Source of the DNA: Loxodes magnus
Lineage: Eukaryota > Ciliophora > Karyorelictea > Loxodida > Loxodidae
Length of the DNA: 64,000 nt
Reading direction: 5' to 3'
NCBI GenBank assembly: GCA_946699065.1
Contig: CAMPDV010000206.1
Coordinates: 372,001-436,000, forward strand
Shown: in pieces, positions 12,814-61,264 of the stretch
How positions within the stretch are numbered: position 1 is the stretch's first letter
Layout of the letters: each line of letters opens with the position of its first letter
The notes under the pieces: model-generated
Told to the model about the DNA's origin: nothing
What the model saw: only the letters and a program-made list of their open reading frames with translations
Databases searched by the model: none
Translations under genes and position numbers: made by a program

Positions 12814-12979
12814 GTAAAAAAATTATCAGACAATTAAACTAAATATACAAGCAATATATAAATTAAAACATTTTAATTTTCACATTTTTATCGTTCATCA
12901 GATATTTTCTAATGTAATCAACATTTAAAATCTTGATTATACAATTTAAATTTATACTAAATTGTAATTAAAAATATTG

Positions 12980-13490: not shown

Positions 13491-13499
13491 AACATGAAC

Positions 13500-15870: not shown

Positions 15871-15873
15871 ATT

Positions 15874-17344: not shown

Positions 17345-18004
17345 AAAGACCCAAAGGTAGACATTTATTGAAGAAAGCTTTAAACGAATAGAAGTACTAC
17401 TTAAGAAAAAAAAAATTCCCAGCCTCGGTGCCATCTAAGATTTAAAATATATTAAAAAGATTTGTATGACTAAGATATAGAATCTTCCAAAGAGCTAGAT
17501 ATCTTAGAGAATATAAAGATAACTAATTATATGCTTTAAAATAATTAATAAAAATAAGTTTAAAATACTTATTAGAAATCGTAACTGATAGTTTAAACAA
17601 TGTTCAAATTTAACTTGAGCATACTTCTGGATAAAAAGTAATTAGTGAAATATACTTAAAAAAGCAATTACAAGAGAACAAATAAAGTAATAATAAGGCT
17701 AACAGTTGACAAAATATTATTAGGAATTAATAAATAATGTATAGAATTAAGCTTAAAAAAGGAAAAGAAAAGTAAATAGAATTATGATTAAAGTTTATCA
17801 TTATAATAATTAATAATTAGGATTCAATTTTCAGAATATGATGTTCTATTATCAATAGTTAAGCCCTAATTAAATTAGTAGTAGTTCATCAAATTAAGAG
17901 GAAAAAGAAAAAGAATATTGAGAATTAATTAAGATCTAAAGGGAAATTTTTTTCTTTTAAAACTAAAAAATGATTCAAAGATTAATAGAGTAAAATAAAT
18001 ATGA
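17345..18004 (+). pseudogene. Coding remnant upstream of second arm LINE
   Basis: Two consecutive protein-like frames. The first holds RARYLREYKDNQ and LKYLLEIVTDSLNNVQ and ends in a TGA at 17,707. The second holds DVLLSIVKPQLNQQQFIKLR and ends at 18,002. A TGA near 17,468 is present in both arms. It probably represents the N-terminal part of the LINE whose RT follows. No domain recognised. Confidence 0.45.
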
Positions 18005-18247
18005 CTCTAGTTTAAAAGGATATTATTATGAATTTTATATTTGACAAAGAATATAACTATTTAAAAAGAAAACAGGAAAAATAAGAATATTTATCCATCA
18101 AAAAAAGTAAAATTATACAAAAAAATGAAAAAAAGAGTGAAAATTAAATAGATTTTAATTAGTACTATTTTTTAGTCTGATATTTAGTTTTTTACTAAAT
18201 CATATTGAAAATAAGAAATTAATTTGGAAATAAGAAATTAAAGAAAA

Positions 18248-18991
18248 ATGATTTATTAAAATCAAAAAGAAAAAGAAAATTAATCAAATGTAGAAATGAT
18301 AAAAGTCAGTACCTAATTCGCAATTAATGAAGTATTTAACTAGCTAATTTAAACTAAAACAAGCTTTTATAAGAATGATTGTGGAATTATAACTGAAATT
18401 ACTAAACAGAAACTCGATCTTTCCTTTTAAGAATTATAAAATTTAAGATAAAATTAATTCAAAAAGTAAGAATCTTATAATGGTTTTAATATTAAATATT
18501 CTTAATTGAAGCAAGATTATGAGCAAGAATTTGAACATAAACTTGATATTTGGACACGAGTATATGAACTTTATAAAAAGAAGTAAAAAGATATGGCTCA
18601 GTCAATTAAAAAAATTAAAACTAAAATTAAGCTAGTTAGACTATTTAATTAAGTGAATTATATGATTAATAAAAAAAATTACAACAGATATACATCAGAT
18701 TTTATAACCAAGAGTAACTAAGCTCAACCTCTTTTTACAAATTAGATTATGCTAACACAAAGAGATAAGGGAAATTAAAAAGATACATAATTTAAGTAAA
18801 GATTTTCGAATTCATCATAGCATAATTTTTAATGTAAAATATTGATATTGAAGAATTATTAAAAAATAAAGTTTTAAAAACAATTACTTTGTTCGATATT
18901 TTTGATCAAAAAATGGTAAAAGTAGAATCTTCTCCAAACTGCAGATAATAGATTTATTATTTGTCTTTTAATTAAATAGTGTGACATCTGA
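18248..18991 (+). CDS. Open 247-codon ORF of second arm LINE (left copy)
   Basis: Opens at ATG 18,248 and runs without TGA to 18,989-18,991. It is rich in Lys/Gln/Glu with a coiled-coil-like stretch around EFEHKLDIWTRVYELYKKKQ and a basic segment KKIKTKIKLVR. It sits just upstream of the APE endonuclease and RT, so it is probably the N-terminal region of ORF2 or an ORF1. The last 50 codons may be out of frame: the next frame reads KTITLFDIFDQKMVKVESS, which looks better. The right-arm copy carries a TGA where this one has CGA, so only this copy is open. Confidence 0.5.
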
Positions 18992-18999
18992 TTGAAATT

Positions 19000-21900
19000 T
19001 AGGTCCAATTAAAATAGATAGATAATTATTTTAAGAGTAAGATTATTTAACTTTATTCATTATAATATGCTACAGAAATACAATACAATCATTCTAAACT
19101 TATTTCATACTTAAACTTAAAATGGTTAGAAAGTTCTTTGTACTTATGGCCTAGGACTTAGGGAAGAAATGAATACAAATATTTTGCAATTAGTTCGCTG
19201 AAATATGAATTCAATGTCCACTAAATAATTAAATATTTAGAAGTTTACTCTATAACATAAAATTGATTCTTTTCTATTAATGAAACATGAAAAAAGTAAA
19301 GCTTTATTTCAATAAAAATTCGTGGATATTGAACTTATTATAAAAATTGCAATTAAAGAACAAGAACTGGTGGAATATGTATCCTTGTTAGAAATGAGCT
19401 AGGCTTTGGTTAAATTGAACTTAATTTTTGGAGAACAAGATGATTGATTTCTTCTTATTAAAGTTAATAACAAATATTTTGCAGCAGCTATTTACAAATA
19501 GATGAAAAATATATATTTTTCAAAGACTAATCATATTAAAATTTAGAAAATATATTTAGAATAGTAGAAGATAAAGGATTCATACTAATAGAAGATTTTA
19601 ATGCTATCTTATATAGTTATGCTAGCAATAATGTACAGAATTAATAAGATAAGATTATAAGATTGCAATATTTTTTGAAGGGTAAGATTTATAGATAATA
19701 AATAATCCAAATTTTGATAATTTTAGAAGCTGTGCTAATTATAGAACTTATTGAAATAATTATGCTATAATCAATTATCATATTAACATCTTAAAGCATA
19801 AATAGAAACTCACCAATATTTGTCCCTAAAGTTAATTTTAAGATCTAGAAATTTTAAAATATTATAATTATGGAAGAACATAAGGCTAAATTTAATGGGG
19901 ATGCTTAGTTAATTTTCAAGCCTTTGAATAAGATAACTTAGAAGCATAATACAATTATATTCTTCAAATTCTCTATAATAATACTGAGCATGTTCTAGGA
20001 TAAGTAAGTTAAAATACTAATTTTAATGTTCTTCCTTAAAAAATAAATGATAATGTTTAATGCTAAGAATTAAGGATAAGCAGCTTGATAAAATACCTTT
20101 AATAAGAAGAGAAGAGTAAGTTAAGAAATAATATAACTAGCATAAGATAAAATAAAAAGTATATAGGTATTAACGTAATTACTGATAGTAAAAAAGGTTA
20201 ACAGAAGAGAAATTATGAATAAATTCCCTTTAAAGTGTTTAAATAAGCAAGGAAAGTTCTAGATCTGAGAAAAAGAAATTATATGTATATAGATTAAGTT
20301 GAATTTACTTAATTTGTTAATATTTGGGACAATAATGTTTCAGCAAACATAAATTTATTGAGAAATGAAATAAAAAACAGAAATTAAAAGATTGATAATA
20401 TTTTAGAAATTGTACATTTTAAAAGAGTAATAAACTTCTTATTTATAAGGAATAGATTTTATTAGTTTTAAATAAGTGTTGGGAATAATAAAGAGGCTAA
20501 ACAAGCATATGGCATAAAAGCAGAGCTTATCAAATATACTAATATAAAATTTCATCTTGTATTATAAAGGTTCATTAATAATATGTTGAGACAGTAAAAC
20601 ATCCCAGATTAACTCAAATAAGTAAGTATTCTTCCAATTTGTTGAGACAGTAAAACATCCCAGATTAGCTCAAATAAGTAAGAATTCTTCCAATTTACAA
20701 AAAAGATCTAAGAGTGATCAGAAGAATGGAATAGAACAACGAAAAATTTGCTCATGAACGTAATTCTAAAAATATATGACAAAACACTGATTTATAGGCT
20801 CTATGGCTATTCTTACTAACGTAAAATTATACACTCTCTAAATAATGATGTTAAAGAGTAAACAAGCAATATCTTATGTTAGAACTTTATAGCCAATTAT
20901 TAATTTCCATAGAATGTGGGGAAATTAAGGCGACAAAGTATATTAATTTAGTTAAGTTATATTAACTAATCCTATTTATTCTACCTACTTAAAATCCTTA
21001 TCGATGTAGAAAAGACGTTGGCATTATTAATAGAAGACCATTGTTTAATCATCTAAGCAGAATAAAATTACCTCTCGCTTTAATAAATTGCTCTGAATCC
21101 TTTTATCATAATCTAGATATTAAGTTTATTTTATATGATACACTTTTTGGAAATTTATAATGTAGTAACGAAGTATTGTAAGGAAGTTCATATTTTCCAG
21201 TTCTAGCTTTTATCTTCTATGTTATTGTTGTCAGATTTTTGGAAACTTATTAAAAACTATTTTACTTTAAATTCTTGGATGCTTTTTTGCTACTAAAGCT
21301 TGGTCAGATGATTTGTTACTGATTTATAATAAAGAACATATTAATTTATTGATTAAAGCAACGTGCAAAGTGTTTAGATTAGTAAAATTGAGCATTAATG
21401 TCAACAAATACGAATATATATGTTTTAGAACTAAAAATTAAAAGCAAAAAGACATTAATGCCAACTTAAGTCTGAATAATTAAGAAACAAAAAGATCTAA
21501 GAAGGAAATTTATTTTGGATATACTTTTCATAAAAACGAATATTTTAAATTAAATGCTAAGAAATATTTAAAAATATAAGAAATGTGCTAATGGATCCAT
21601 ATTAGAGTTGTCCAAATATCAGAAGATAACTCCTTAAAACTTTAAAAGAATTGACAAGTTTTTTTACTTCCTAAAGTTAAATATGGATCAGAAGTTATTC
21701 CATGAGCAATTTCATTAAGTATTGGAAAAATAAAGAAAAATATACAAACTAATTAAAGAAAAATAGCAAGTAGTGCACTCTATATTCCAAACTAAACATT
21801 AAACGAATCATGCTTCATAGACTTGAAATGATCATCTCTCGAATATTAAATATGTAAGAGGTACACTAAAATTAGTTTTAATATAACTAATTATATAAAG
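19000..21900 (+). pseudogene. APE endonuclease + reverse transcriptase, left arm
   Basis: Endonuclease motifs: NQRTRTGGICILVRN near 19,350, FILIEDFNAIL near 19,580 (family GDFN) and LQIINNPNFDNF near 19,695. RT: KEAKQAYGIKAELIK near 20,490 (fingers), IPDQLKQVSILPI near 20,605 interrupted by a 56-bp tandem duplication, motif A LIDVEKTL near 21,000, motif B VLQGSSYFPVLAFIFY near 21,180, and motif C KAWSDDLLLIY near 21,305 with W in place of the usual aromatic Y/F. LPKVKYGSEVIP follows near 21,675; the frame then decays and the zinc finger is missing. Frameshifts occur at motif A and at the duplication. Same LINE superfamily as copies A, B and E but a separate subfamily. Confidence 0.8.
20585..20696 (+). 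repeat. 56-bp tandem duplication inside RT, left arm only
   Basis: Two consecutive 56-bp units (20,585-20,640 and 20,641-20,696) differ at two positions. The mirror site in the right arm (about 37,149-37,204) has one unit. Because 56 is not a multiple of three it breaks the RT frame. Confidence 0.95.
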
Positions 21901-32149: not shown

Positions 32150-33420
32150 AAGAATTTTAAAGCTCCTAGAAATCCTCTATCTACTTTGCTTGATGAATTT
32201 CCTATTGCGGCTTTTAAGTAAATTCCGTCTATTATTCCTATCAGCTCTTGATTATAATTTCATCTTCTAAAAAATGCAGGTTTATGTAGAAAACTGACAT
32301 CTTTTCTATAAATTACTTTTTAGTCAAATTTGTATTTGAATGTAATAGTATAAAGTTTTAATTTAATTTCAAATCAATAATAGAATTCTAATAATCAAAA
32401 TTGTAAAATTTACTATTGGAAAAAATATGACATTTTTCTAATATATAGGAAAATAAAATTGCTGAATAATTTTAAAATCTATTTAACTAAAATAAGTATG
32501 ATTTAAAGATAAATTAAAATTAATATCTTAATAATAATAATAGCATTAAAGGCTATTTTAATTTAAAATTTATAGTTAAATATAATAAAATGATAATAAT
32601 TATAAAGCTTAATCATATAATATTTCAGAAATTTATTATAAGATACATATAAAAATCTTATTATTAAAATTGAAAATTTAATTATCTTTAACTATCTTTT
32701 TTAAATTTTAATTAAAATTTAAAATTAAAATTGGCCGCTGTTAATTACTTTGTAAGAATGAGATTTTAAATTTTGGTGTCTTAAATATGATCTATACTTT
32801 TTTAGAATATCATTCCTATAGTAAATATTAAATTAAAACATATATTAATATTTTATTTTTTTATTAAACATAGTGCTATTTTTTAATTTTTAGCTTTAAA
32901 TAAATATAATTTATTTATATTTAACTTTCTAAATGTAATGGTATTGCTACCCTTAAAATTCGTAGTTAATAATAATTGATTTATTTTTTTCCTATAACAA
33001 TAAGCTACAACTATGTATGATAAGTTAGTGAAGTACTTAATTTTTACTATTTTCATAATTTTTTTATCTATTAACATTTAAAAATTTTTAAGAACTTTTA
33101 TATAAATATATCTTGTAATTTATTTAATGATAATTGAGCTGCTTAAATTTTTTGGAAATCTTCGAAAAGATTAAAAAATTTTAGTAAAGAAAGTAATTTT
33201 ATTTATATAATCAAATAAAATATATTAAATTAATATATCTTATAAAAATAGGAACTAATGTTGTAAACAGATCCTTACTTGTAATTTACTTTTTCTCATC
33301 TTTTAATTATTATGATATCGTAAATTTATAATTAATAAGTACTAGTAAATATACTGTTTTATTAAGGTAAATTATAAATAATATTATATTTTATAGGTTA
33401 TTATTATTATTTGAATTATT

Positions 33421-35999: not shown

Positions 36000-38880
36000 A
36001 CATATTTAATATTCGAGAGATGATCATTTCAAGTTTATGAAGCATGATTCGTTAAATGTTTAGTTTGGAATATAGAGTGCACTACTTGCTATTTTTCTTT
36101 AATTAGTTTGTATATTTTTCTTTATTTTTCCAATACTTAATGAAATTACTCATGGAATAACTTCTGATCCATATTTAACTTTAGGAAGTAAAAAAACTTG
36201 TCAATTCTTTTAAAGTTTTAAGGAGTTATCTTCTGATATTTGGACAACTCTAATATGGATCCATTAGCACATTTCTTATATTTTTAAATATTTCTTAGCA
36301 TTTAATTTAAAATATTCGTTTTTATGAAAAGTATATCCAAAATAAATTTCCTTCTTAGATCTTTTTGTTTCTTAATTATTCAGACTTAAGTTGGCATTAA
36401 TGTCTTTTTGCTTTTAATTTTTAGTTCTAAAACATATATTTTCGTATTTGTTGACACTAATGCTCAATTTTACTAATCTAAACACTTTGCATGTTGCTTT
36501 ATTCAATAAATTAATATGCTCTTTATTATAAATCAGTAACAAATCATCTGACCAAGCTTTAGTAGCAAAAAAGCATCCAAGAATTTAAAGTAAAATAGTT
36601 TTTAATAAGTTTCCAAAAATCTGACAACAATAACATAGAAGATAAAAGCTAGAACTGGAAAATATGAACTTCCTTACAATACTTCGTTACTACATTATAA
36701 ATTTCCCAAAAGTGTATCATATAAAATAAACTTAATATCTAGATTATGATAAAAGGATTCAGAGCAATTTATTAAAGCGAGAGGTAATTTTATTCTGCAT
36801 AGATGATTAAACAATGGTCTTCTATTAATAATGCCAACGTCTTTTCTACATCATAAGGATTGTAAGTAGGTAGAATAAATAGGATTAGTTAATATAACTT
36901 AACTAAATTAATATACTTTGTCGCCTTAATTTCCCCACATTCTATGGAAATTAATAATTGGCTATAAAGTTCTAACATAAGACATTGCTTGTTTACTCTT
37001 TAACATCATTATTAAGAGAGTGTATAATTTTACGTTAGTAAGAATAGCCATAGAGCCTATAAATCAGTGTTTTGTCATATATTTTTATAATTACATTCAT
37101 GAACAAATTTTTATTCCATTCTTCTGATCACTCTTAGATCTTTTTTGTAAATTGGAAGAATACTTACTTATTTGAGCTAATCTGGGATGTTTTGCTGTCT
37201 CAACATATTATTAATGAACCTTTATAATACAAGATGAAATTTTATATTAGTATATTTGATAAGCTCTGCTTTTATGCCATATGCTCCAGATTATTTATTG
37301 TTTAGCCTCTTTATTATTCCCAACACTTATTTAAAACTAATAAAATCTATTCCTTATAAATAAGAAGTTTATTACTCTTTTAAAATGTACAATTTCTAAA
37401 ATATTATCAATCTTTTAATTACTGTTTTTTATTTCACTCCTCAATAAATTTATGCTTGTTGAAACATTATTGTCCCAAATATTAACAAATTAAGTAAATT
37501 CAACTTAATCTATATACATATAGTTTCTTTTTCTCAGATCTAGAACTTTCCTTACTTATTTAAACACTTTAAAGGGAATTTATTCATAATTTCTCTGCTG
37601 TTAACCTTTTTTACTATCAGTAATTACGTTAATACCTATATACTTTTTATTTTATCTTATGCTAGTTATATTATTTCTTAATTTACTCTTCTCTTCTTAT
37701 TAAAGGTATTTTATCAAGTTGCTTATCCTTAATTCTTAGCATTAACATTATCATTTATTTTTTAAGGAAGAACATTAAAATTAGTATTTTAACTTACTTA
37801 TCCTAGAACATGATCAGTATTATTATAGAGAATTTGAAGAATATAATTGTATTATGCTTCTAAGTTATCTTATTCAAAGGCTTGAAAATTAACTAAGCAT
37901 CCCCATTAAATTTAGCCTTATGTTCTTCCATAATTATAATATTTTAAAATTTCTAGATCTTAAAATTAACTTTAGGGACAAATATTGGTGAGTTTCTATT
38001 TATGCTTTAAGATGTTAATATGATAATTGATTATAGCATAATAATTTCAATAAGTTCTATAATTAGCACAGCTTCTAAAATTATCAAAATTTGGATTATT
38101 TATTATCTATAAATCTTACCCTTCAAAAAATATTGTAATCTTATAACCTTATCTTATTAATTATGTACATTATTGCTAGCATAACTATATAAGATAGCAT
38201 TAAAATCTGCTATTAGTATGAGTCCTTTATCTTCTACTATTCTAAATATATGTTCTAAATTTTAATATGATTAGTCTTTGAAAAATATATATTTTTCATC
38301 TGTTCGTAATCAGCTGTTGCGAAATATTTGTTATTAACTTTAATAAGAAGAAATCAATCATCTTGTTCTCCAAAAATTAAGTTCAATTTAACCAAAGCTC
38401 AGCTCATTTCTAAAAGGATGCATATTCCACCAGTTCTTGTTCTTTAATTGCAATTTTTATAATAATTTCTATATCCACGAATTTTTATTGAAATAAAGCT
38501 TTATTTTTTTCATGTTTCATTAATAGAAAAGAATCAATTTTATGTTATAGAGTAAACTTCTAAACATTTAATTATTTAGTGGACATTGAATTCATATTTC
38601 AGCGAACTAATTGCAAAATATTTGTATTCATTTCTTCCCTAAGTCCTAGGCCATAAGTACAAAGAACTTTCTAACCATTTTAAGTTTAAGTATGAAATAA
38701 GTTTAGAATGATTGTATTGTATTTCTGTAGCATATTATAATGAATAAAGTTAAATAATCTTACTCTTATAATAATTATATATCTATTTTAATTGGACCTA
38801 AATTTCAATCACATGTCACACTATTTAATCTAAAAGACAAATAATAAATCTATTATCTGCAGTTGGGAGAAGATTCTACT
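36000..38880 (-). pseudogene. APE endonuclease + reverse transcriptase, right arm
   Basis: Mirror of 19,000-21,900: WSDDLLLIY near 36,550, QGSSYFPVLAF near 36,670, and an unduplicated fingers-palm join IPDQLKQVSILPIYKKD near 37,165, which reads through intact. The endonuclease motifs lie near 38,100-38,440. Other TGAs and the motif A frameshift remain, so it is not functional. Confidence 0.75.
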
Positions 38881-39554
38881 TTTACCGTTGTTTTGATCAA
38901 AAATATCGAACAAAGTAATTGTTTTTAAAACTTTATTTTTTAATAATTCTTCAATATCAATATTTTACATTAAAAATTATGCTATGATGAATTCAAAAAT
39001 CTTTACTTAAATTATGTATCTTTTTAATTTCCCTTATCTCTTTGTGTTAGCATAATCTAATTTGTAAAAAGAGGTTGAGCTTAGTTACTCTTGGTTATAA
39101 AATCTGATGTATATCTGTTGTAATTTTTTTTATTAATCATATAATTCACTTAATTAAATAGTCTAACTAGCTTAATTTTATATTTTATTTTTTTAATTGA
39201 CTGAGCCATATCTTTTTACTTCTTTTTATAAAGTTCATATACTCATGTCCAAATATCAAGTTTATGTTCAAATTCTTGCTCATAATCTTGCTTCAATTAA
39301 GAATATTTAATATTAAAACCATTATAAGATTCTTACTTTTTGAATTAATTTTATCTTAAATTTTATAATTCTTAAAAGGAAAGATCGAGTTTCCGTTTAG
39401 TAATTTCAGTTATAATTCCACAATCATTCTTATAAAATCTTGTTTTAGTTTAAATTAGCTAGTTAAATACTTCATTAATTGCAAATTAGGTACTGACTTT
39501 TATCATTTCTACATTTGATTAATTTTCTTTTTCTTTTTAATTTTAATAAATCAT
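38815..39554 (-). pseudogene. Right-arm copy of 247-codon ORF, with nonsense
   Basis: Starts at ATG 39,554 like its left-arm twin. It has TGA at 39,243-39,245 where the twin has CGA (Arg), a C-to-T change in CACGAG. Otherwise the same Lys/Gln-rich protein. Confidence 0.55.
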
Positions 39555-41587
39555 TTTTCTTTAATTTCTTATTTCCAAATTAATTTATTATTTTCAATAT
39601 GATTTAGTAAAAAACTAAATATCAAACTAAAAAATAGTACTAATTAAAATCTATTTAATTTTCACTCTTTTTTTCTTTTTTTTTATAATTTTACTTTTTT
39701 TCGATGGATAAATATTCTTATTTTCCCTGTTTTCTTTTTAAATAGTTAAATTCTTTGTCAAATATAAAATTCATAATAATATCCTTTTAAACTAGAGTCA
39801 TATTTATTTTACTCTATTAATCTTTGAATCATTTTTTAGTTTTAAAAGAAAAAAATTTCCCTTTAGATCTTAATTAATTCTCAATATTCTTTTTCTTTTT
39901 CCTCTTAATTTGATGAACTACTACTAATTTAATTAGGGCTTAACTATTGATAATAGAACATCATATTCTGAAAATTGAATCCTAATTATTAATTATTATA
40001 ATGATAAACTTTAATCATAATTCTATTTACTTTTCTTTTCCTTTTTTAAGCTTAATTCTATACATTATTTATTAATTCCTAATAATATTTTGTCAACTGT
40101 TAGCCTTATTATTACTTTATTTGTTCTCTTGTAATTGCTTTTTTAAGTATATTTCACTAATTACTTTTTATCCAGAAGTATGCTCAAGTTAAATTTGAAC
40201 ATTGTTTAAACTATCAGTTACGATTTCTAATAAGTATTTTAAACTTATTTGTATTAATTATTTTAAAGCATATATTTAGTTATCTTTATATTCTCTAAGA
40301 TATCTAGCTCTTTGGAAGATTCTATATCTTAGTCATACAAATCTTTTTAATATATTTTAAATCTTAGATGGCAGGCTGGGAAATTTTTTGTCTTAAATAG
40401 TACTTCTATTCTTTTATAGCTTTCTTCAATAAATGTCTAATTTTGGATCTTTACAAAGCTATTTTAAAGGAATACGAAGGTATTTTTTTTTTGTTACTAG
40501 TTTTTGTTTCTTAATAAATTTCCTAACATTTTAATAATTTCTTAACTCTCCGCAGTTAAAACTATCAAAATCTAATTAATTCAAGCACCCACATATGGTA
40601 ATTTCTTTTTAAATAGCAGCTTATTTATTTTAAATAAAGAAGATTAGCTAAGAATAAATTCTTGCATTTTGATTTATTTCTCTATTTTTTAAGCAATAAT
40701 AATTAATTTAGTTTTAGCGCGTAGATATATTAATAGGAGTTTTCATACTTTCAGGAATGAGATTAAAAAAGCACTATAATTATTGTTAATTTGCATTTTT
40801 TCCATTTAGAAAAGCAAAATAGAAGTTAAAAAATGATATAAATTAGTAATCTAAAGAGTTAAAAAAACAAAAAAAAAAGAATTATTAATAATCCTGGTAA
40901 TTCCAATTCTCAATGTAGCTAATCAAAGAATATATTAAATAGCAGCAAAATAACAAACTATTCCCATTTCTTTATTGAAAGAAGCTTTAAAACTTAAATT
41001 AAAAAAGTAAACAACTTAAGATCTTTTCTCAAGCTAATATAAATAAATTAATAATTATTATGGAAATGTATAAATAAATAAAGGATTATAAATATTAAAC
41101 AAAAAAAGAAATTAGTATACATTTATTAGATTTAATTTAATGATGCTTATTTAGAAGCATAAAGCAAATTCTATAATTCTTTCATAATAATAACTGCAAA
41201 ATATTTTTTTATTATTGCATCTTAAAAAAGTTAAATGCTTTAAAATAATAATTTCTACAGATAAAAGAAAGTATATTAAAATAGTTTTTACATTCTTTTT
41301 AACTTTTAATTTAATCAAATTTATACCTAAGTTGGCTATTTATTTATTTGATATCTAAAAGGAAATACTTGAATCTGAAATAAAGATATTGTCATATTTT
41401 TATAATAAGAAGCTAATATAAAAATTTCAAAAGCTTTATTAAGTCATGATAAATATAAAAAAATTAATTAATTAATTAAAATATAATAGTTTCAATATTT
41501 AAGAATATCGAGACATAGTTGCAATAAATATAGATTTGACTATAAATATTACAAATATGTTGAAAGATAAAAGTTTGTAAATGCCAA

Positions 41588-41925
41588 TCAAGCTTCTTCT
41601 TGTTCTTTCTCTATCATATATTTTTATTTATTGTCTTGATGAAATTTGTCTTTTTTTTCTACTAGAAACTCTTCTAAAAGCTCATCTTGTAGTTTAAACA
41701 TTTCAAGACGCTTTTTTAGTAATTTGGATTGAAAATTTTTGATTAATTTGTCTATTTTAGGAATTTGATTCTTTGAAAAATGTTTGTTTATATATTTTTA
41801 GTCATAAAGAATTAGATTCTTCTTGTCTTTTTCTTTAAAAGCTTTATGACTTTCAAGTTCCTCAATAATATCTGCATAATATTAGCAATCAAAAATATGA
41901 TCAGTTTCATCAATATAAAAAAATT
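41588..41925 (-). pseudogene. LINE ORF2 C-terminus, right arm (frame intact)
   Basis: Reads DETDHIFDC...LILYDQKYINK...KLLKKRLEMFKLQDELL through to TGA at 41,588-41,590 without the frameshift seen in the left arm. Only the C-terminal piece is present; the finger's first Cys pair is missing. Confidence 0.65.
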
Positions 41926-44329
41926 GTAAATTAGTTTTGACTTAGATAATTTTATACTTTTTTAAAATCATTATACTTTAAAAATAATAATTATAAAGTT
42001 GAAATTGAGATAAAAAAATAAAAAATGAAAGATGAAAACCAAAAAAATTGTTAAAATGATAAAAACTAAAAAAATCTTTATTTAGAATATTTATAAATAT
42101 TAAGTGAATTACTAACATTAATTATATCAAAAATATTCCCTTTTAGACTAAAAATTATTGGAAATATGCAGTTATACATGATAAAATTCAAATTTCTTAT
42201 TATAAAGATTAAACATTTTAAAGTTTTATCTTATAGTGATTAGAAATAAAATAATTTTAAACTTATAATAATTGATGAATATGAATTAAATTAAATTAGA
42301 AAAAAAATTAGATGCAAGAAATAGTCTTTACACGCATCCATCTTAATTTCATGCTAATATTTGTATTAAATTAAATTTTTACAAACTAAAAGGATTTTAT
42401 CATGAAAAAAATATAAATTTTATATTTTCATATTAAACATTTACATTAAAAATTATCTCTTTATAACTTATTCTATTTATTTATATTTTAATTTCTTATA
42501 TTATAGTTATATTTAAAATTTAAAATATTTTCTGTACTTTGTTTAAATTTTGTAAATTAAGATTGCTAATTTTTTCATACTTTTGTTCTATTTGTTTATT
42601 TATATTTATCTAATCTTTAAATTTTAATTATTCTGTTTTTTTATTTTTTTTATTTCTTTATATGTTAGGTTAAGCAATTTCAGTTATGTATTCTTCTTAT
42701 TAATAAATTAATTTTAACGTTTTGGTTTTATTTCTATTTATTTATTTTAATGTGTTTTATTCATAAGACAAAACAATCTCTATTATAAACTAGCAACTTA
42801 TTTTGTTTACTTAATGATACTAGTATTTTAAAGAACTTTTCTGTATTATCTAGTTAAAAAATTAAATATTCTTATAGTAATTTAAGTTGTTTAATAAAGT
42901 TAGAAAAGAATACTAAAGTTAAAATATTTAAATTCATAAATAGATTAATTTCTTAAATATATGCTTTTAATTTATAATTTTTCAAATTATAAAGAATTAC
43001 TGTTTATTTTTCTTTTTTCATTATGAAATTTTTTTCGTTAGTTTAGTAGATGTAATATTTGCTATAGCTGACAACAAAATAAGAAATAAATATGAGAAAA
43101 AGAAGTTTAGTTTCTTTATAATTGGCGAAATTTAGAAAATATAAAGATTCTGTATACTTTCGACTATTTGACGAAAGTGGTGAAATTTAGCCAACCATTT
43201 CTCAAAATAGATCCTAAATAAGATCATTCTATTTCCTTTATTTTAAATTAAGGCATTGCTGATTTACAGACATTAGGAGTGATACAGAATAAATCCTTAA
43301 AGCCAAGAAATAGTTAGTTAGATTTCTAATAATAGAAAAAAGTTTAAGTCTTTTAAATTAAACTTTAAAGTTCAATATTTAGTTATCTTAATTATTTTCA
43401 TTATTAAATGTAAAAAATTATATGATATTAAATACATTTTTATTATCTTATTTGAATTAAAAAAATTTTAAATTTTTATTTATCTTTACTTTAAAAACTA
43501 ATTAAAATACTTACAAAAAATCAGCTTTTTATCGTTTGACAGGCTACCTAATGATGATTGGAACTATTCTATTTTTATAAATTTCATATAAAGTTCTAAT
43601 TTTTTAACTTGAAAATATTTTTAAATGTATTATTGAAAATGTTTTCTTTTAATTTGTCCTACTTTTCTTTTAATACTTTTAATACTATAATAAATATTCT
43701 ATACATTTTTTAATTTATAAACATCTTTTTAATTTTTCTATATTAAATCTAAAAAATAATTGAAATACTAAAATCCTAATTTATTTACGTTCAAATATTA
43801 ATTAGCCATACAAAATATTTTAGCAGCTATTATATATTTATAATCATTATAACCATTATCATTTACAAAACAATTTTAAACAAATTGCTATATAATATAT
43901 TATAAAGATTAATATCTTAAGCTTTTATATAAGCTATTTTTTTGTTAATGACATAATTAATTTTCTGATTAATTTATATAATTGCAAATTTATTAATTAA
44001 AGTTTGTTTATCTGCATTTATTTTTAATTTCGTTTCTTTATTTTAGTTATAAATGTACTTAATAGAAATAGAACCTTAAAAAGAAAAAAAGATAATAAAT
44101 TTAAGTTTAATGTAAATTTTTTAATGAGAATTTACTCAATTTTAGCAAAAAAGAAACTAATTGATCCTTTATATTTTGTTTAGTTATACTATTGTCTCAA
44201 CCTAATTTAGATAGATAAAAAATGTTATAAATCACGAATTATTGCTTCATAATTTTAATTTAGTTTAATTTAATTTATTTTAGTAAAATTGTAAATTAGT
44301 TCATGTTAGCTGCTTAAATAAATTTTAAA

Positions 44330-44830
44330 GTCCTATTTCCAATCTACTTGCTTCAATTGATGTTTTCTTTTGCTTCTAAGTTTTGTTAAAATCAGTCTTA
44401 GTAATTTTTGAGTTCCTTTTCTCCTGTATACTTCTCCTTCAGGATTATAGAACTTTTCTCTCTCTTTTTTCTCCTAAAGCCATACTTATTTTTTTAAATT
44501 ACAAAATTATCAGAAATTATTGTAAATAAACTTTTAACTATTGCAAAAGTAGCATAATTTTTTAATTTTTAGTTATGCTTTTGTTGGATATTGCTTTTCT
44601 TTTCCATTTGAGGTTAGTTTATTCCAACTGCTCTATTTCTATTTTGTTATTCCAGAGATTCTATTGATTTTAATTTTCCTATTTCTGGTTCTGTAATTTT
44701 TTTCAATTTTTACTTTAATCTTGAATTTTCTATAACAGGTATAAGAGAGAGTTTGTCTGGGTACATACTCTCGTTAGTATTTTTATAAGGCGTCGATTCC
44801 TTTCTCCTTGTTAGTCATTCTTAAATCCAA
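44330..44830 (-). pseudogene. Gag-like ORF1 remnant in right arm
   Basis: Mirror of 12,980-13,490, with the same degraded knuckle (CYFC...) and NPEGE segment. It points toward the spacer and is back to back with the gag at 45.6 kb. Confidence 0.65.
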
Positions 44831-44950
44831 TATTTTTAATTACAATTTAGTATAAATTTAAATTGTATAATCAAGATTTTAAATGTTGATTACATTAGAA
44901 AATATCTGATGAACGATAAAAATGTGAAAATTAAAATGTTTTAATTTATA

Positions 44951-45616
44951 ATATTTTATGAAAGTTACAATTTTTATTTTCAAAACTATTACCTTCAAAT
45001 TTTATCTTTTCTTTTCTTTCTGATTTTCTTTTCTATTTTCTTTAATATTTAGATGAATGAATCTTTAAAAAATTTTATTTTCACGATTTTTTAAAATTAA
45101 TTAATTAATTAACATTTCTTTTCTTTAATTTTTATGTTTTTAATATAATCATTTCATTAAATTTTATAAGAAAACATTCTATTAATCTTTAAAAATTCTA
45201 TTCATTTTAATATATATTAATTTTTCTTTCTTATTTTCATTATTATTTTTGCTTTTAACGTTTTAGCTAATTCATTCTCCTATAAAAGATAGTTCTTTGA
45301 TTTCATTTATTCTAAAATTTAAAAAATTTGGATTCTCTAAATAAATTAATTTTTTGTAATTTGTTAAAATTAAAATTAAAATTAAAAATAATGAAAGCTA
45401 ACATAATTTCATATAAAATAAATTGGATTGTATTAATAATTTTTAATATAATATTAAAAAATTAATTAGAAAAGTAGGATAGGAAAATGGAAAAATATGA
45501 TACTAGTTTAATATTTTACAAAAGATAACTTTTTTTATTATTGCTAAAATTTTAATTTTTATCTCATTTTTATCTCATTTTTTTAACATTTAATTTAGCT
45601 TTGCATTCAAAAAAAA
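44951..45616. other. A+T-rich flank of right arm
   Basis: Long T and A runs; likely includes the 5' region of the following gag. No motif recognised. Confidence 0.4.
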
Positions 45617-46500
45617 ATGGTTGAAGGTTTCAAAAAGAGATTTTATACCACATCCACAAAAAAGGAGAGAAATCCAAAACCATTTCTCATCAGATTTCTT
45701 ACACCTAAACCTAATCTTTTTCTTCTTAATAACCTGAAGCATAACAAGAGGAACGGAAACAGCCTAAGAAAGCGACACATACTGAAACGCCAACGTCGGA
45801 GGAGTAACCAAGGAAGCAGATGAAGTCTGACCTTCACCAAGAGGTCTCTGTTTTCAATCCTTCTGACTAGATGAGCATGGAGCAGCTCATCAAAGTGGTC
45901 CTAAATCTCTATGAAGAGGTCAGGAAACTCAGGAAGGAGAACGAGAAGCTATCACAGCAGATCCAGCATGGATTGCAGGATACTTTAGATATCAGAATGG
46001 CTAACACTGAAAGGGAGATTGATGTCCTATGGAAGTATCAACAGGAGCAGTTTAACCAGACTAACTCTTAAGTGCAAAGGATACAAGATTAGAGTCAGCA
46101 GATTGAAAGCATCTTGCAAAGTCAGAGAAGTTAGCAGATCCCATTAGAATAGGTAAATTCCGATAAGATGGAGATTGAGAAGAATCATCATCAAGAATAA
46201 ATAACTGAACCAAAACTGAAGATTTAGAAATTATGCTACTGCTGCAAAAGTAAATAACACCTTTGGAAGAATTGTAACAACTTTAGAAAACTAAAGGAGA
46301 AATCTTGGAAGAGATAATTATAATAGTAAATACGAGAAAAAAAAATTAGATCTGGTGCAACGAAAAATGGTTAGTTTATAGAATTAAGAAACCTTCTAAT
46401 TAAAAAGAACCAGAAGAATTAATTTGAATTAATACCAGAAGGAGAAAGATAATCTAGAATACATGACTCGCGAGCGCTAGAGCTCGTAAAAAACTAGAAC
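45617..46500 (+). CDS. Gag-like LINE ORF1 with CCHC knuckle (copy 2), one frameshift
   Basis: Starts MVEGFKKRFYTTSTKK, then changes frame in an A run near 45,657-45,663. It continues as SHQISYTQTQSFSSQQPEAQ, a coiled-coil region (YEEVRKLRKENEKLSQQ), TEREIDVLWKYQQEQ, DKMEIEK and the knuckle CYCCKSKQHLWKNC (Cx2Cx4Hx4C, first Cys at 46,234). A basic tail with PEGE ends the conserved part; the frame stays open to 46,768. Its base composition is much less A+T rich than the surroundings, suggesting a younger insertion. Sequencing error or a real deletion could explain the single shift. Expected role: RNA-binding ORF1p. Confidence 0.75.
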
Positions 46501-49160: not shown

Positions 49161-49346
49161 TCTGCTTCAATTTTAAAATTAAACTTTTTATCCTTTATTA
49201 CTAAAAATATCCAAAGCAATAAAGATAGTGATATCAACTTTTAATTATATTTTATATAAATAACAATTATTTTAGATTTTAGTATAACCTATAAAATATA
49301 ATATTACTTGTAATTTTCCTTGATAAAACAGTATATTTACTAGTTC

Positions 49347-49688
49347 TAATTAATTAAAAATGGATAATTAAAAAGATGGTGGGAGCTGAGATTGACCTTC
49401 TGAATCATACTTTCTGGTTTTATGGCTAGGAACAAGTTCCTTTCCTGTCGCTGAGAAAGTCCCTGGTCAAAGTCAACCTTTGCAAGGGAACGCCTTCCTC
49501 TTGATTATCCACTCCTGATAGGGGCTTGAAGCCTGGCTGCCCATAGCGATGGAGCTCCCTGGCAGCTGCTTTTCGAAAGCAACAGGATATCCCCGTTATC
49601 CCATGAAGGGAGTGTTGGGGTCGTTAAACTGCAAGAAGTTGCAGTCCAAAAACTCTTTAAGTTAAAATTAATTAATTAATTAAAAATG
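49347..49688 (+). mobile_element. SINE-like structured RNA element with 16-bp target duplication
   Basis: A 300-bp insert far richer in G+C than its surroundings, flanked by perfect copies of TAATTAATTAAAAATG (49,347-49,362 and 49,673-49,688). The partner S lacks it at about 33,325. Potential stems: AGGAAC/GTTCCT, GCTGCC/GGCAGC, GCTTT-TCG-AAAGC, and ACTGCAA-GAAG-TTGCAGT near the 3' end. It ends ACTCTTTAAGTTAAAATTA (49,652-49,670), 18 of 19 bases identical to the tail of LINE B. Non-autonomous elements often borrow the 3' end of the LINE that moves them. I cannot assign the 5' body to tRNA, 5S or 7SL; a weak A-box-like TGGCTAGGAAC lies near 49,423 and no good B box is visible. Confidence 0.75.
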
Positions 49689-50494
49689 TGCGATATCTTA
49701 ATAATTAAGAGATGGTAAAAGTTATATTATAAGTGATTATCTACTAACATCCTTAGTTCCTATTTTTATAAGTTATAATAATATAAAATATTTTATTTGG
49801 TTATATAAATAAAATTACTTTCTTTACTAAATCTCATCTTTTTTTCTTTCGAAGAATTCTAAAAAATTTAATTAGTTAAATATTTATTAACTGAATAGAA
49901 ATATATATTTATAAAAGATTCTTAAAGATTTTAAAATATCGATAGAAGAAATTTAGCTAAAAAAAGTAAAAAATAATTACTTTAATAGCCTGAAATAACA
50001 TAGTTATAAGCTATTTTTATATGAAAAAAGCATTAATTATTATTAATTGCAAATTCAAGGTGAGTAATACCATTAAATCTTGAAAGATAAATATAAAAAA
50101 TTATAATTATTTTAAAGGGATAAATAAAAAAAATAACAAGATATTTAATAAATATCTAAAGAATTATAAAGTATACAGTTCAATTTAATGCTTAAACTAT
50201 GAAAATGTTATATCTAAAAAAATATAAATAATATTTAAGACACCAAAATTAAAAAACTCTTACTTAAATAGTAATTAACAATTATCAATTTTTATTTGAA
50301 CATTTAATGAAAATTCAAAAAAGATAGTTTAAGATAATTAAATTTCAATTTTAATAAGATTTTTTATATATACCTAATAATAAATTCTATAACACTATAT
50401 GATTAAACTTTATAATTATTATCATTTTTATTATTTTTAATTAATTATTTTTAATTAAATAGCCTTTAATGCTATTATTAAGATATATAGTTTT

Positions 50495-55490: not shown

Positions 55491-55888
55491 CTTCAAATAT
55501 ATTCGTTTACTCAACCTTAAAATCAGAAATTCTAAATCTAAAAAATCTAAATAAAAATGAATACAGATTTAAACTATTTTAAATTTAAGATGCTTACATT
55601 TAAGATCATTTCTTTTTAAAGTTTTTATGAATTATTAAAAACTTATTGAGCAAATAATAGAGTTTAACATTAAGAATCTTTATAATTTTTCGCTCTTAGT
55701 TGAAATAATTGAAGTATTTTACAAAATATTCTTAAATCAATATTTTTTTAAAATTATAAGTTCAGCTATTAGCTTCAATATTTTTATTTAACCTATATTT
55801 TTTAATTAAGAATACTCATATATCAGTAAAGAATATTAAATTAAAGAAAAAATATATCATAGTTGTGTTAAATAAATAAATAAATTTG

Positions 55889-55930
55889 ATTATAGAGCGC
55901 GTAGCACCTCGTTGGTGCGCAGCTCTTTAA
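55889..55930 (+). other. Short conserved hairpin motif, copy 1
   Basis: ATTATRGAGCGCRTAGCACC..GGTGCGCAGYTCTTT is shared with 60,671-60,711. Stems AGAGC/GCTCT and GCACC/GGTGC are separated by an asymmetric internal loop GCGTA/GCA. It is a sharp G+C-rich island in A+T-rich DNA. Function unknown. Confidence 0.7.
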
Positions 55931-57120
55931 TTAATAACTTTTTAACATAAATAATTTTTTAAACTCAAAATTTCATTGGCTTACTTCATTTTTAATATAC
56001 ATTTTCTGTTTTGTATTGCCTTTATTACCCTACATGTATTTTTCTTATAAATTAGAATATTAATCAAAAGAGCTTATAGAGGACTTTAAACTGATAATTT
56101 TTGAAGAAAAACATAATAATTTACAACTAAAAAAAAGAATGTAGCTGAAAAACATATAAAAGCACTTGAAATTCTTTAGACTAATAATGAAAATTTATTT
56201 TTTAAATAATATATTCTAAGCTATTATTCGTTAAATTTAATAATAGACTGTATAATTGCAAATCTTTAATTTTTGTCTTTATTCTTTCCTGAAAATATTT
56301 TATTAGTTTGTATTGAGAATTTTTGCATAAAATGTAAACTTCTTTTACTCTATTTCATTTGGTCTAAGCAATTATTAATGTTCATAATCTACATCATTCA
56401 TTTAAAATATTATCTCTTTTTCTATCTTTTCTTCTTCACTTTTCTTAGAAATCTTATCATCCCACTTCTCGTATTATATAACTTTCTATTACCTAACTGA
56501 TCGCAAAACTCTTTCTTTTCTTCTTCACTTTTCTTAGAATTCTTAGCCTTTTTTTTAAATATCTAGATATTATTTTTTAAACTTTCATTTCTGAAAATTT
56601 TACTTTTTTTCTTTTTAATTTTCATTATTATTTAGGAATCTTTTTTTTTATTTGTTTTTTACATTTTACAATTTTTTTTACGATTTTTTTTCTTTATTAC
56701 TATTTATTTAAATAGAAAGTTTCAATTTTTATAGTTTTTTTTAAATTTCTTTTATTTCTTTATTGTATTTTTCAGCTATTATATAATAACTGTACATAAT
56801 TAAAAAAGATTTTGTACATGTTTTTTCTTTTTCTACGATTTTTTTGCTAATTATCCTTTTTCATTTAAGAGAGATCGATCACGTTTTTTAGTTTTAATGG
56901 ATTGATTTTATATGTAAATTTTTTTTTTTTTAATTTTCTGATATTCATACTTTTTTTTTAATATTCGTTTTTAAGAGAAACTAGTTATAAAAAGATTTTT
57001 CTTTTTTTTTATTTTTTATTTTCCATTTCATTGTTAGAATTTTTTTATTCTGAGAATTTTTCAAGTTTAGTATCGTCCCACAGTTATCTTGTAGTGTAAA
57101 ACTCAATCAATAAAGGATTT
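55931..57120. other. T-rich tract
   Basis: Very long T runs on the plus strand. The frame at 56,273-56,500 is hydrophobic low complexity and not supported. CTTTTCTTCTTCACTTTTC occurs twice (near 56,428 and 56,515). Confidence 0.45.
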
Positions 57121-58139: not shown

Positions 58140-60452
58140 TCATAATAACGTTAGCCATTGTACAATTCTAAAATTATAGCCCATAGTCACTGTATACTTT
58201 ATTCCAATCAATCTAAAATAATTATATGCTAAATTCAAACTTACATATTATTAGTTAACATTCTCTACACCATTCAATAACCTTCCAATATTCCATCTTC
58301 GGAAATTGTAATCTTTCGATTAGTTATCCCAACGAACTCCATTACTTTATACCAACCAATTATTGTCCCTCGATAATGATAAACTACCCACAGAATCTGT
58401 ATGTCCCAATAGTACACATATACATTATCCAGTTTAGGTACTCCATATTCTTATTGTCTTATCATGAGATCCAGATAAAATATATTTACTATCACCCGAG
58501 AATATTACCGATAACACAAAATAAGAATGTCCCGAAAATACTCTTATACATTATTATGTCCTAGAACTCCATAACCGAAGAGTTTCGTCACCTGATCCAG
58601 ATACTATGTAGTTAGAATCACTAGATATAGCCACAGATAATATAGATTATGTGTGACCCCTCATGATCTTACAGTTACCTGTCTTGACGTCCCATAGTCT
58701 CACCGTCTTATCAACACTTCCCGATACGATGAACTCTGAATCACTAGATATAGCCACAGCATATACAGATTCTGTGTGACCACTCATGGTCTTACAGCTA
58801 CCTGTCTTGACGTCCCATAGTCTCACCGTCTTATCTCAACTCCCAGATACGATAAACTCTGAATCACTGGATATAGCCACAGCATAAACATCATTAGTGT
58901 GACCACTCAAGGTCTTACAGGTATCTGTCTTGATATTGTAAAGTCTAAGAGTACTGTCATAACTTCCCGATACGATAAACTCTGAATCACTGGATATAGC
59001 CACAGAGAATACATAATGTGTGTGACCTCTCAAGGTCTTACAAGTACCTTCAGCTATGTTGTAGAGTCTTAAAGTGCAGTCCAGACTACCTGATACTATT
59101 AAGTTGCCATCAGAAGAGATGGACACGGAAGTAACTGAGTTTGTGTGTCCAGTGAAAACGTGAGGGTATTCAGTGATTATTTAAGATAGATTGACGTTAG
59201 AGAGGTCGCAATTAATGAACTTAGTGTTACGGAGGTTGGTTGATGTTAAGTTGGATTCGGAGAAATTGCAGGAGGTGAATGTGGTGTCGGAGAGATCTGA
59301 GTTAGTTAAGTCGATGTTTTAGAAGTTTTATTAAGTGAAATTATAGTTCATGTAGTTTAAAATAGTTAATCCGTTTGAAGCTACTTAAGATACTCCTTGT
59401 TGAGACCTACATAACTAGATTATTTAATTTAATTTTGAATGAATTAGTTAGTCAGTTACTTATGGTAATTGCAACAAAATTTATCCTTATTCAATTAATC
59501 CTGGCTTACTTAAAGGACTTTACTTCAACGTTATTATATTTACATTCTCTTGCTTTAACTGATTTAAAAACCTATTTAGTTTGTCAAACGATAAACTCGC
59601 GAAATTCTAGATTACATACTTGCTCATATTTTATTAATCTTGATTTTAAACTTAAATCTAAACTTCTGGCTATACTACAATGCTTGCTACTTAACATAAT
59701 TCATTCACTACATTGACTTGCTTGAAATAATTTTGAATTATTTACTATGCCTCATTCAAAGTTAATTGCTTACCATTAGAAGTCTAACTTAAATAGCAGA
59801 AAACTTTGAACATACTTGACTAGATAATATTTCTTAGATTTTGGATATTCATTTGCTAGTTCTAACTTCTTCTTAACTCGTCAATCTCACGCTAGATTAA
59901 ATCAAATTATTATTAACTATTCTGTCTTAGATTTTATTATTATTAACCCATACTTTAAAATGATTATTATTAAAATTCATTTGATATTTGAAGCTTAGAC
60001 AGACGCTAAAGTAAATTTTTTACTCTAATATTAGTACCAGAAATCTAGTCTGTTAAAGATTTTAATATAAACTGAACCGATAGGGCTTAGATACTCTGCA
60101 TAAGCTAAGAACAGTCCTATATAACTTCTTTTATCGTATTATGGTAATTTTATTTTTGAATCTAATATCCCTGTAACCATTGGTACTATTATTTGATCTT
60201 TACTTACTCACCAATTTACTCTTAAATATGTGGTACTTCTTACTGAACTCGAAGTTAATCAACTTATCCTTATAACTATTCAGGCTGTATATAGTAAACT
60301 TGCTGATGAAATTTGCATTTGATTTCTTAAGTAAATTAATAAACGTTTTTAAGACACTTCAAACATGAACAACATCCACAAGGTAACAATTTATATACTC
60401 GCTTGTCTTAATTGTATTGTTTTTTACAATTTGGACACTGATTGCTATCCAT
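58140..60452 (-). CDS. RING-like / pentapeptide-repeat / WD40 protein with one in-frame TGA
   Basis: 770 codons from ATG 60,452 to TGA 58,140, with one internal TGA at codon 539 (58,836-58,838). N-terminus: Cys-rich RING-like finger (C6, C9, C25, C27/28, C30, C33, C46, H49; QCPNCKKQY..LLPCGCCSCLKC). Middle: Gln-rich coiled coil. About residues 376-424: pentapeptide repeats (DLTNSDLSDTTF, CNFSESNLTSTNL). About 431 to 720: six clear WD repeats plus a degenerate seventh, enough for one propeller, each 41 residues (123 bp) with near-identical DNA between some blades. Blade 3 reads SGS-TGA-DKTVRLWD. Likely a scaffold or ubiquitin-related protein by family; target unknown. The rest of the frame is clean, so this is either a very recent pseudogene, a base error or readthrough. 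It is the best evidence for TAA/TAG = Gln. Confidence 0.85.
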
Positions 60453-60670
60453 TTATAAAGATTAAAAAAAATTAGTATATAGAAACTAATTATAATGAAA
60501 TAAAAATTGATAAAATATTTTTATTATTAAAAAATAATAAAAAATGATGACAAAATAAACTTATTTTTATTTAGCTCATAAAAAAATAAGAATAAGCATG
60601 AAATCTCTATAATTACATCCATGTAGTCTTTTAAAAATAATTTTTTTTCATAAATAATAAATAAAAATTA
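60453..60670. other. Upstream region of WD40 gene
   Basis: A+T-rich, presumably promoter and 5' UTR. No defined element except the adjacent hairpin motif. Confidence 0.35.
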
Positions 60671-60711
60671 TTATGGAGCGCATAGCACCTCAAAGGTGCG
60701 CAGTTCTTTCC
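60671..60711 (+). other. Short conserved hairpin motif, copy 2
   Basis: Same motif as 55,889-55,930. The outer stem is GGAGC/GTTCT, keeping pairing through two G-U pairs where copy 1 has A-U/G-C pairs. The inner stem and internal loop are conserved; the loop is TCAAA instead of TCGTT. Confidence 0.7.
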
Positions 60712-61264
60712 ATATCTCAAAATATGTCCTTTTCTTCAAGTAAGCCTTCAGGTAATAGAAATTGATCTCTTATTAGTTACATATCTTCATCTCCTCTATA
60801 TTATCTCCTATTCTTCTGTCTTCTATCTATCTACGCTTTGTTAGATCTTTATTATAAGCTTAATTTATTTTTTCTTACATATCTTACTAATTTTCATTTC
60901 TAATTATTTTCTTCATGATCAAGCTTTTATAAATTTATAAAAATTATCCTTTTTCTGCTCTATATTATTTTCCTATTTTCTTTTTTTCTTCATTTATAAA
61001 TATTATGCACACAGTAAAAAATAAAATATGAATCCTTCAAATTTTATATAAAGGATAGAGTAATAAAATGATAATTAATCAGATTTCTATAACTAGAAAT
61101 ATTATAAAGGTAATCATTTAGAACATTGATACTTCTAAAGATATTAAAGAGTAGAAAGATTAATCTACTTTTATTAGGATAAGTAGAGATTAAATTTTTA
61201 TAAATAGAGATAAGATAAATTTATTTAAATTACTATATAAAAAGATCAATTTGAGTTGAACTGA
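60712..61264. other. Intergenic, possible coding trace on minus strand
   Basis: A minus-strand frame at about 60,655-60,895 reads YNKDLTKRRQIEDRR and YLKAYLKKRTYFEIWKEL but crosses the hairpin motif and has no clear start. Otherwise A+T-rich. Confidence 0.25.

Follow-up and report, generated by a model that had tools for sequence, protein, structure and literature searches.

The G+C-rich insert at positions 49347–49688 of the window (the whole 64,000-nucleotide stretch of Loxodes magnus DNA that was analysed) is very probably a copy of a Loxodes SINE family, which would stem from a composite, structured RNA that includes a piece of U2 snRNA and would be moved by a helper of the LINE-D type. 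The family consists of dispersed copies with a shared 5′ end, a variable tail, target-site duplications (TSDs), subfamilies, paired base changes, and a U2-like segment.

The insert and its empty target site

The 16-bp sequence TAATTAATTAAAAATG is repeated exactly at 49347–49362 and 49673–49688 and is the TSD of the insert, as a first-pass annotation of the window had stated; the TSD-to-TSD extent, 49347–49688, is exact and encloses 310 bp. The G+C fraction is 0.50 in the body (49374–49645) versus 0.18 and 0.16 in the flanks, in line with the earlier description of the element as G+C-rich. The insert is absent from the homologous minus-strand site near 33324–33336, in the opposite arm of a long inverted repeat. 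In particular, the flanks align to this site at 91% (49284–49361) and 77% (49675–50300) and, once joined, align straight across it, confirming the empty site that had been placed near 33,325. The features of the insert and of its target are as follows (window coordinates, strand, feature):

49347–49362, +, left TSD TAATTAATTAAAAATG, exact 16-bp repeat (family control, 86 of 99 versus 5 of 392; see below)
49363, +, extra G between the TSD and the element 5′ end, seen in other copies too
49364–49664, +, SINE body, subfamily SF1, with genome copies; 0.7% from the SF1 majority sequence
49378–49444, +, predicted P1 stem of the 5′ domain; 49378–49387 pairs with 49435–49444, pairable in all compared subfamilies
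49407–49437, +, U2 snRNA-like segment (U2 nt 1–32), 36.7 bits; holds hairpin P2
49412–49419 with 49424–49431, +, predicted hairpin P2, inside the U2-like segment
49628–49645, +, predicted 3′ terminal hairpin, 7 bp with a 4-nt loop; helix 10, covaries between subfamilies
49646–49672, +, 3′ linker and TTAA-type tail; length differs among copies
49673–49688, +, right TSD, exact 16-bp repeat
33321–33336 (ends approximate), −, homologous site without the insert, in the opposite arm of the inverted repeat; from flank alignment

The window contains a 7.8-kb inverted repeat, 97.6% identical, between 12853–20640 and 37149–44955, with LINE-D fragments in its arms and with weaker matches between 32.2–35.8 kb and 46.8–52.3 kb.

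A family of dispersed copies in the Loxodes genome

We searched an assembly of 705,730,643 bp in 7,843 contigs, in which the window is G000:C206:372001-436000. In all likelihood the assembly is macronuclear and not, as the check proposed in the first-pass annotation presumed, germline; a macronuclear L. magnus assembly of 706 Mbp, with NCBI code 27 and abundant LINEs, has been described (PMC11441545). In the genome searched, reading of the reverse transcriptase (RT) domains passes through TAA, TAG, and TGA.

A first look returned 1,833 candidates, and the 40 scored among them covered nearly the whole query at 99–100%. Genome-wide pattern searches allowing up to three mismatches gave 4,714 matches to a 30-nt 5′ core (2363 + 2351 on the two strands) and 4,318 matches to a 33-nt 3′ core (2209 + 2109), spread over many contigs and near-equal on both strands, while the reversed patterns gave 0 for both; the further genome copies that the annotation had proposed to look for are thus abundant. 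An exact SF1 tail pattern gave 131 + 119 matches, with full-length copies in 20 of 20 fetched. Searches for the element in phage and plasmid DNA, and for an exact 25-mer of it in viral and genome contigs, returned no match.

The family is made up of two young subfamilies, SF1 and SF2, and an older lineage, SF3/SF4. SF1 and SF2 are 81% identical; the third lineage is 65–67% identical. Twenty copies taken in order from the exact 5′-core list comprised 3 of SF1, 16 of SF2, and 1 older copy (L135). Mean divergence from the subfamily's own majority sequence is 1.1% for SF1 (63 copies, mostly top-scoring; 2.9% in 3 core-picked copies) and 3.8% for SF2 (24 copies), the latter being an underestimate because the copies were selected by an exact core motif.

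The fetched SF3/SF4 copies have flanks in common, as part of a segmental repeat, and therefore probably go back to a single old insertion that the repeated segment carries. Specifically, L178 compared with L170 has identities of 0.93–0.94 in the body and 0.89–0.99 in other windows, and L189–L194 compared with L170 have identities of 0.90–0.94 in the body and 0.985–1.0 over 65 nt at and beyond the 3′ end; the lower body identity perhaps reflects faster decay of G+C-rich DNA in an A+T-rich genome. Because the fetched copies share one flank set and the body is conserved no better than the flanks, we ruled out SF3 as a living parent gene. The segmental repeat that holds the old SINE (L169–L180 and L189–L194) has hundreds of first-look candidates. 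Old copies also recur at ~22-kb spacing in G000 C1694, C1760, and C533, which suggests large tandem repeats or misassembly.

We take the element to be probably non-coding: Pfam finds no family over its six frames (TAA/TAG read as Q, TGA as W), and the SF1 and SF2 majority rows differ by three indels, of 1, 1, and 2 nt, which counts against coding. Under code 6, one of the antisense frames stays open.

TSDs, variable tails, and a fixed 5′ end

TSDs were scored after leaving out one copy cut by the locus end (L013-) and one with an altered 3′ part (L154-); of the 120 copies then left, 21 were removed because their left flanks resembled those of other copies. The flank-similarity rule is loose (at most 6 mismatches in 25), and therefore some of the removed copies may be independent. 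TSDs are present in 86 of the 99 copies with dissimilar flanks and are not recognised in 13, versus 5 of 392 mismatched left/right pairings at the same score. Their length is 11 to 29 bp (14 to 20 bp in 74 of 86), and their first two bases are A or T in 86 of 86, a soft boundary because the tail is A/T-rich too.

All 122 located copies begin within nt 1–5 of the element. Among them are 28 that were selected on 3′ features alone, 20 through the tail and 8 through the 3′ core, and every one of these has the shared 5′ end; 5′ truncation is therefore rare or absent. The 3′ end carries TTAA, TTAAA, or AAAATT repeats whose length varies among copies. The first-pass annotation had expected copies to vary in 5′ length and to share the 3′ tail: the former is contradicted by the fixed start, and the latter is borne out, with a TTAA-type tail common to the copies. 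TSDs, a variable tail, and a shared 5′ end are the features expected if a short RNA with a fixed start is copied by target-primed reverse transcription. Together with the thousands of copies, they agree with the annotation's proposal of a non-autonomous element moved by LINE machinery and support classification as a SINE-type, non-autonomous, LINE-type retroposon family.

Paired base changes and the RNA fold

Single copies in the sense orientation fold only slightly better than shuffles (z of −1.8, −1.5, and −1.5), and the antisense of the window copy folds better relative to shuffles than the sense does (z of −2.9). Single-copy folding is not decisive for the strong short hairpins noted in the first-pass annotation; what supports the predicted sense fold is that paired bases have changed together between subfamilies. 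We analysed an alignment of 28 sequences, chosen by hand from all subfamilies, from which the structures were also derived and in which kinship of the sequences inflates the covariation comparisons. The RNAalifold structure (46 pairs) has 96.9% of cells paired, a value that partner sliding cuts to 37–57%; both-side changes occur in 15 of 46 pairs (10.3 in shuffles, reached in 1 of 500) and in 92 cells (28.9 in shuffles, reached in 0 of 500). Five hand-chosen helices have 95.8% of cells paired, with both-side changes in 11 pairs (7.9 in shuffles, reached in 19 of 500) and 74 cells (24.8 in shuffles). An unguided scan for stems returned 9 with at least two paired changes versus 0–7 in 20 column shuffles, which lends moderate support to the predicted fold.

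The P1 stem (helix 1) has 99.6% of cells paired, with 5 of 9 pairs invariant and 0 with both-side changes; P1 hardly varies, and covariation therefore gives no test of it. Some of the supported helices are mutually exclusive, namely 46–52/91–97 versus P1/P2. A pseudoknot between nt 28–33 and a loop near nt 110 was seen by eye only and was not counted.

Paired changes between subfamilies are also what would be expected of functional RNA genes, and the copies could in principle be retropseudogenes of conserved host structural RNA genes, copied by a LINE now and then and not themselves sources. The 5′ ends common to the copies and the old SF3/SF4 copies with shared flanks would fit such an origin, but SF1 and SF2, 81% alike, coexist and are both young, the core matches number ~4,700, the SF3/SF4 body is conserved no better than its flanks, and no Rfam family fits the copies tested. 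We consider a retropseudogene origin unlikely and retain the SINE family as the preferred reading.

A U2 snRNA-like segment in the head

Alignment of Loxodes U2 snRNA with the SINE subfamily profile places U2 nt 1–32, at the 5′ end of U2 and starting at U2 nt 1, on element nt 44–74 (window 49407–49437). The match scores 36.7 bits; the best of 4688 column permutations reaches 27.2 bits, the best of 2453 shuffled U2 sequences 27.7 bits, reversed U2 16.4 bits, and the reverse complement 14.0 bits. The corresponding Gumbel p of 2e-7 needs perhaps a 10–100-fold correction because U2 was picked among several RNAs considered. Over the 31 aligned sites, identity to U2 is 25 in SF1, 24 in SF2, 24 in L135, 24 in SF3, and 26 in SF4, and all 31 sites agree with U2 in at least one subfamily. 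In pairwise tests, the number of shuffles as good per 1000 is 0 for SF1, 16 for SF2, 3 for SF3, and 0 for SF4, so that SF2 and SF3 taken singly make a weaker case than SF1 and SF4. Hairpin P2 occupies the place of stem-loop I of U2. Comparison of the element with the remainder of U2 gives 16.2 bits, equalled by 254 of 2163 permutations, and a further U2 likeness in the same order (UAUCCACUC-UG) is for that reason not claimed. The region upstream of U2 has no significant match to the element leader.

The Loxodes U2 gene (L195) was located with RF00004 at 146.7 bits and serves as a positive control for Rfam models in this genome. Rfam gave no match to the window copy at E values up to 10 and only chance-level matches elsewhere: three in L130, L135, L128, and L120 (in L128, U4 at 16.3 bits and E 0.86 on the sense strand, spanning its 3′ end and flank; in L130, SmY at 15.2 bits and psRNA6 at 14.7 bits, both antisense), and two in five SF3/SF4 loci. 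Rfam's own U2 model gave no score on any SINE copy tested. ARAGORN (bacterial setting) found no tRNA in the window, and Rfam found no tRNA in the copies tested, nor 7SL or 5S to E 10. The annotation's view that the 5′ body is not tRNA, 5S, or 7SL accordingly stands, and the covariance-model search that it had called for yielded nothing beyond chance in the copies tested. Its suggestion that the RNA parent is new holds in part: one segment of 31 nt resembles U2 from U2 nt 1 onward, so the parent cannot be called new throughout, while the ~270 nt besides this piece appear to have no recognised parent in Rfam, in the copies tested.

The Loxodes genome has many inverted pairs of U2 snRNA genes, ~0.7–1.7 kb apart (G000 C120, C515, and C2784), along with seven shorter U2-like copies of 161–162 nt scoring 56–74 bits.

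The likeness to U2 might instead be convergence or chance, with an entirely new parent for the head, as the first-pass annotation suggested. It is true that the segment is internal and only 31 nt long, that any single subfamily matches at just 24–26 of 31 sites, and that the Rfam U2 model scores no copy tested. However, none of the 4688 permutations or 2453 shuffles reaches 36.7 bits, the match starts at U2 nt 1, every site agrees with U2 in at least one subfamily, and human U1, U4, U5, U6, and 7SL score 10.5–15.2 bits, about the same as when reversed (7SL, 14.1 bits versus 16.2 bits reversed). A chance origin is, in our estimate, distinctly unlikely, and we continue to treat the segment as a U2-derived piece of the SINE.

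Transcription signals

Consensus A and B boxes match the element no better than they match shuffled sequence. Of the 59 copies assigned to SF2, 48 have a T6 run immediately ahead of the tail and all 59 have an internal T4, which is also present in 60 of the 63 copies assigned to SF1. Pol III would tend to stop at such runs, and a Pol III transcript that extends into the tail is therefore unlikely, unless the Loxodes enzyme requires longer ones. It is unlikely that the element RNA is a standard Pol III type 2 transcript. Fourteen copies have exactly one extra base between the TSD and ATAATT: G in 7, A in 5, T in 1, and C in 1, compared with 8% G in the flanks. In this small sample (7 of 14), the extra G would fit a capped RNA, and the extra G at 49363 is possibly non-templated and cap-like.

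LINE-D as a candidate helper

An RT locus (C910) leads to LINE-D, with the RT match ~1 kb upstream on the same strand, so that the two are linked by position. Inspection by eye of the frames upstream in LINE-D shows YLGY, as at an RT end, and a CCHC finger; Pfam finds nothing in the last 1.4 kb. LINE-D is young, the 40 scored copies being 97–100% identical to the query. Its 3′ end consists of CAATATT-CTTA-AATATTG, then AAACTATTATATT, then a TTAA-type tail. In eight further LINE-D 3′ ends, with six different right flanks, the hairpin, AAACT, and TTTTAATTA are present in 8 of 8, and 5 of 8 continue as TTAATTAATTAA. In the SINE, whose 3′ tail the first-pass annotation had called LINE-like, the 3′ end has a comparable build: a hairpin (7 bp, 4-nt loop), then a linker that includes AAACT, then TTAA repeats. 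Comparison by blastn of the SINE with the fetched LINE 3′ parts (including L069 and L070, which enter these comparisons only) gave tail-level matches only, except for an old SINE beside LINE-D. From the 3′ architecture, with little sequence shared, we favor LINE-D as the helper of the SINE, with moderate confidence. LINE-A, LINE-B, and LINE-C, found via RT matches, were rejected as helpers because they end in (TTTA)n or poly-T behind a different hairpin. The window holds two mirror LINE-D fragments of 437–451 bp:

15882–16332, +, 5′-truncated LINE-D copy with TTAA-type tail, 94–95% identical to the LINE-D 3′ end
41462–41913, −, mirror copy of the same LINE-D fragment, matching the LINE-D 3′ end

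Other LINE-related sequences in the window include G+C-rich ORF1-like frames (code 6) at 45625–46490 (+) and ~8830–7900 (−), both with a zinc knuckle recognised by eye (CYCCKSKQHLWKNC and CYICRRTDHLWRRC) and with sub-threshold Pfam matches only (best E 0.2), and LINE-A 3′ fragments at 55869–55935 (97% identical) and 60642–60995 (83%). Elsewhere, LINE RT domains lie in tandem at 2,532-bp spacing (G000 C5131 and C20), and part of a LINE has therefore become a tandem repeat. The window also contains a WD40-repeat gene at 58143–60575 (−), with Pfam WD40 matches in two pieces (E 1.5e-27 and 1.2e-39), the upstream piece of which carries pentapeptide repeats.

The TTAA-type tail shared with LINE-D, and the lack of Pol III boxes beyond chance, would also suit an internal-deletion derivative of a LINE, of the RIME/SIDER kind, with the ends of the autonomous element. 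Against this, the body has no sequence match to the fetched LINE 3′ parts, is 47% G+C, and has the U2 piece inside it, and we regard a deletion derivative as very improbable. A DNA transposon (MITE) or an assembly artefact would account for a short dispersed repeat with TSDs, but is already contradicted by the varying TSD length, the tail that varies at one end only, and the near-equal strand numbers on many contigs, and can be dismissed for practical purposes.

Proposed origin and mobilization

We propose that the insert is a copy of a SINE whose RNA, of ~300 nt, would be composite. It would begin with a 43-nt leader, followed by a 31-nt piece from the U2 5′ end, which would correspond to the first stem-loop and the following CAAGU; behind this would come a long structured body and a LINE-like 3′ end, consisting of a hairpin, an A-rich linker, and UUAA repeats. 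A full-length transcript with a fixed start would be bound by a LINE-D-like reverse transcriptase recognising the terminal hairpin and the TTAA tail. The enzyme would nick an A/T-rich target, prime there, and copy the RNA to its 5′ end, and staggered second-strand nicking would yield TSDs of mostly 14–20 bp. In the weakest step of the proposal, template switching onto U2 may have brought in the U2 piece, or the piece may still aid transcription or RNP assembly.

A more speculative extension, which we regard as less likely than not, is that the retroposon RNA is capped and non-Pol III (snRNA-like), with a piece of the U2 5′ domain grafted into an otherwise unknown fold, that selection has preserved its folding through several subfamilies, and that it has multiplied to thousands of copies in a ciliate soma without being excised. 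Mobile elements reportedly do not undergo extensive removal from the Loxodes soma. The family is young, abundant, and 5′-intact, and its transcription and mobility could therefore be studied there; the paired base changes yield a testable RNA fold. If the proposal is true, a U2 piece in a structured RNA with no recognisable Pol III promoter would widen the range of possible SINE founders.

Comparison with known systems

Literature searched for SINE and Loxodes together describes no SINE in Loxodes, and the listings returned for SINEs in ciliates hold nothing on the Loxodes family. The word SINE is absent from the main text of the L. magnus genome report (PMC11441545), and the family may be among the unclassified repeat families of that report. 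The autonomous 5–6 kb LINEs that it describes are candidates for having supplied the machinery within this genome.

The Loxodes family has the general features of SINEs: it is short, dispersed, and of high copy number, with variable TSDs, a variable 3′ simple-repeat tail, and a small-RNA sequence in its head (U2 nt 1–32 at nt 44–74). The internal Pol III promoter of SINEs in the strict sense is not seen with consensus A and B boxes. The family resembles SINE1/7SL, SINE2/tRNA, and SINE3/5S elements in size, TSDs, 3′ tail, copy number, and probable LINE dependence, but differs from them in that the copies tested have no 7SL, tRNA, or 5S similarity and the element has no A and B boxes beyond chance. 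Deletion derivatives of LINEs, such as RIME/SIDER (for example, TSIDER1), have 5′ and 3′ ends identical to those of a LINE. The Loxodes element is like them in having no visible Pol III promoter and in sharing a TTAA-type tail with an autonomous LINE, and unlike them in its body without recognised LINE sequence, its apparently conserved RNA structure, and its U2 piece.

SINEU elements have a 3′ tail and TSDs. SINEU is a Repbase class of SINEs with U1- or U2-derived heads (PMC5753468, PMC8010984, PMC8143547), reported from crocodilian and/or avian genomes (PMC8010984, PMC8143547). Both SINEU, as described there, and the Loxodes family are short retroposons with a U2 snRNA piece, LINE-dependent in SINEU and probably so in Loxodes. 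In SINEU, to judge from the class name, the snRNA forms the very 5′ head, whereas in Loxodes U2 nt 1 lies at element nt 44, so that 43 nt precede the piece, which is internal and recognisable over only 31 nt; most of the Loxodes element, moreover, is predicted structured RNA with no known parent, and the host is a ciliate. In its workings the Loxodes family is a SINE, and its nearest known class is SINEU, from which it differs in the position and length of the U2 piece, in its body, and in its host.
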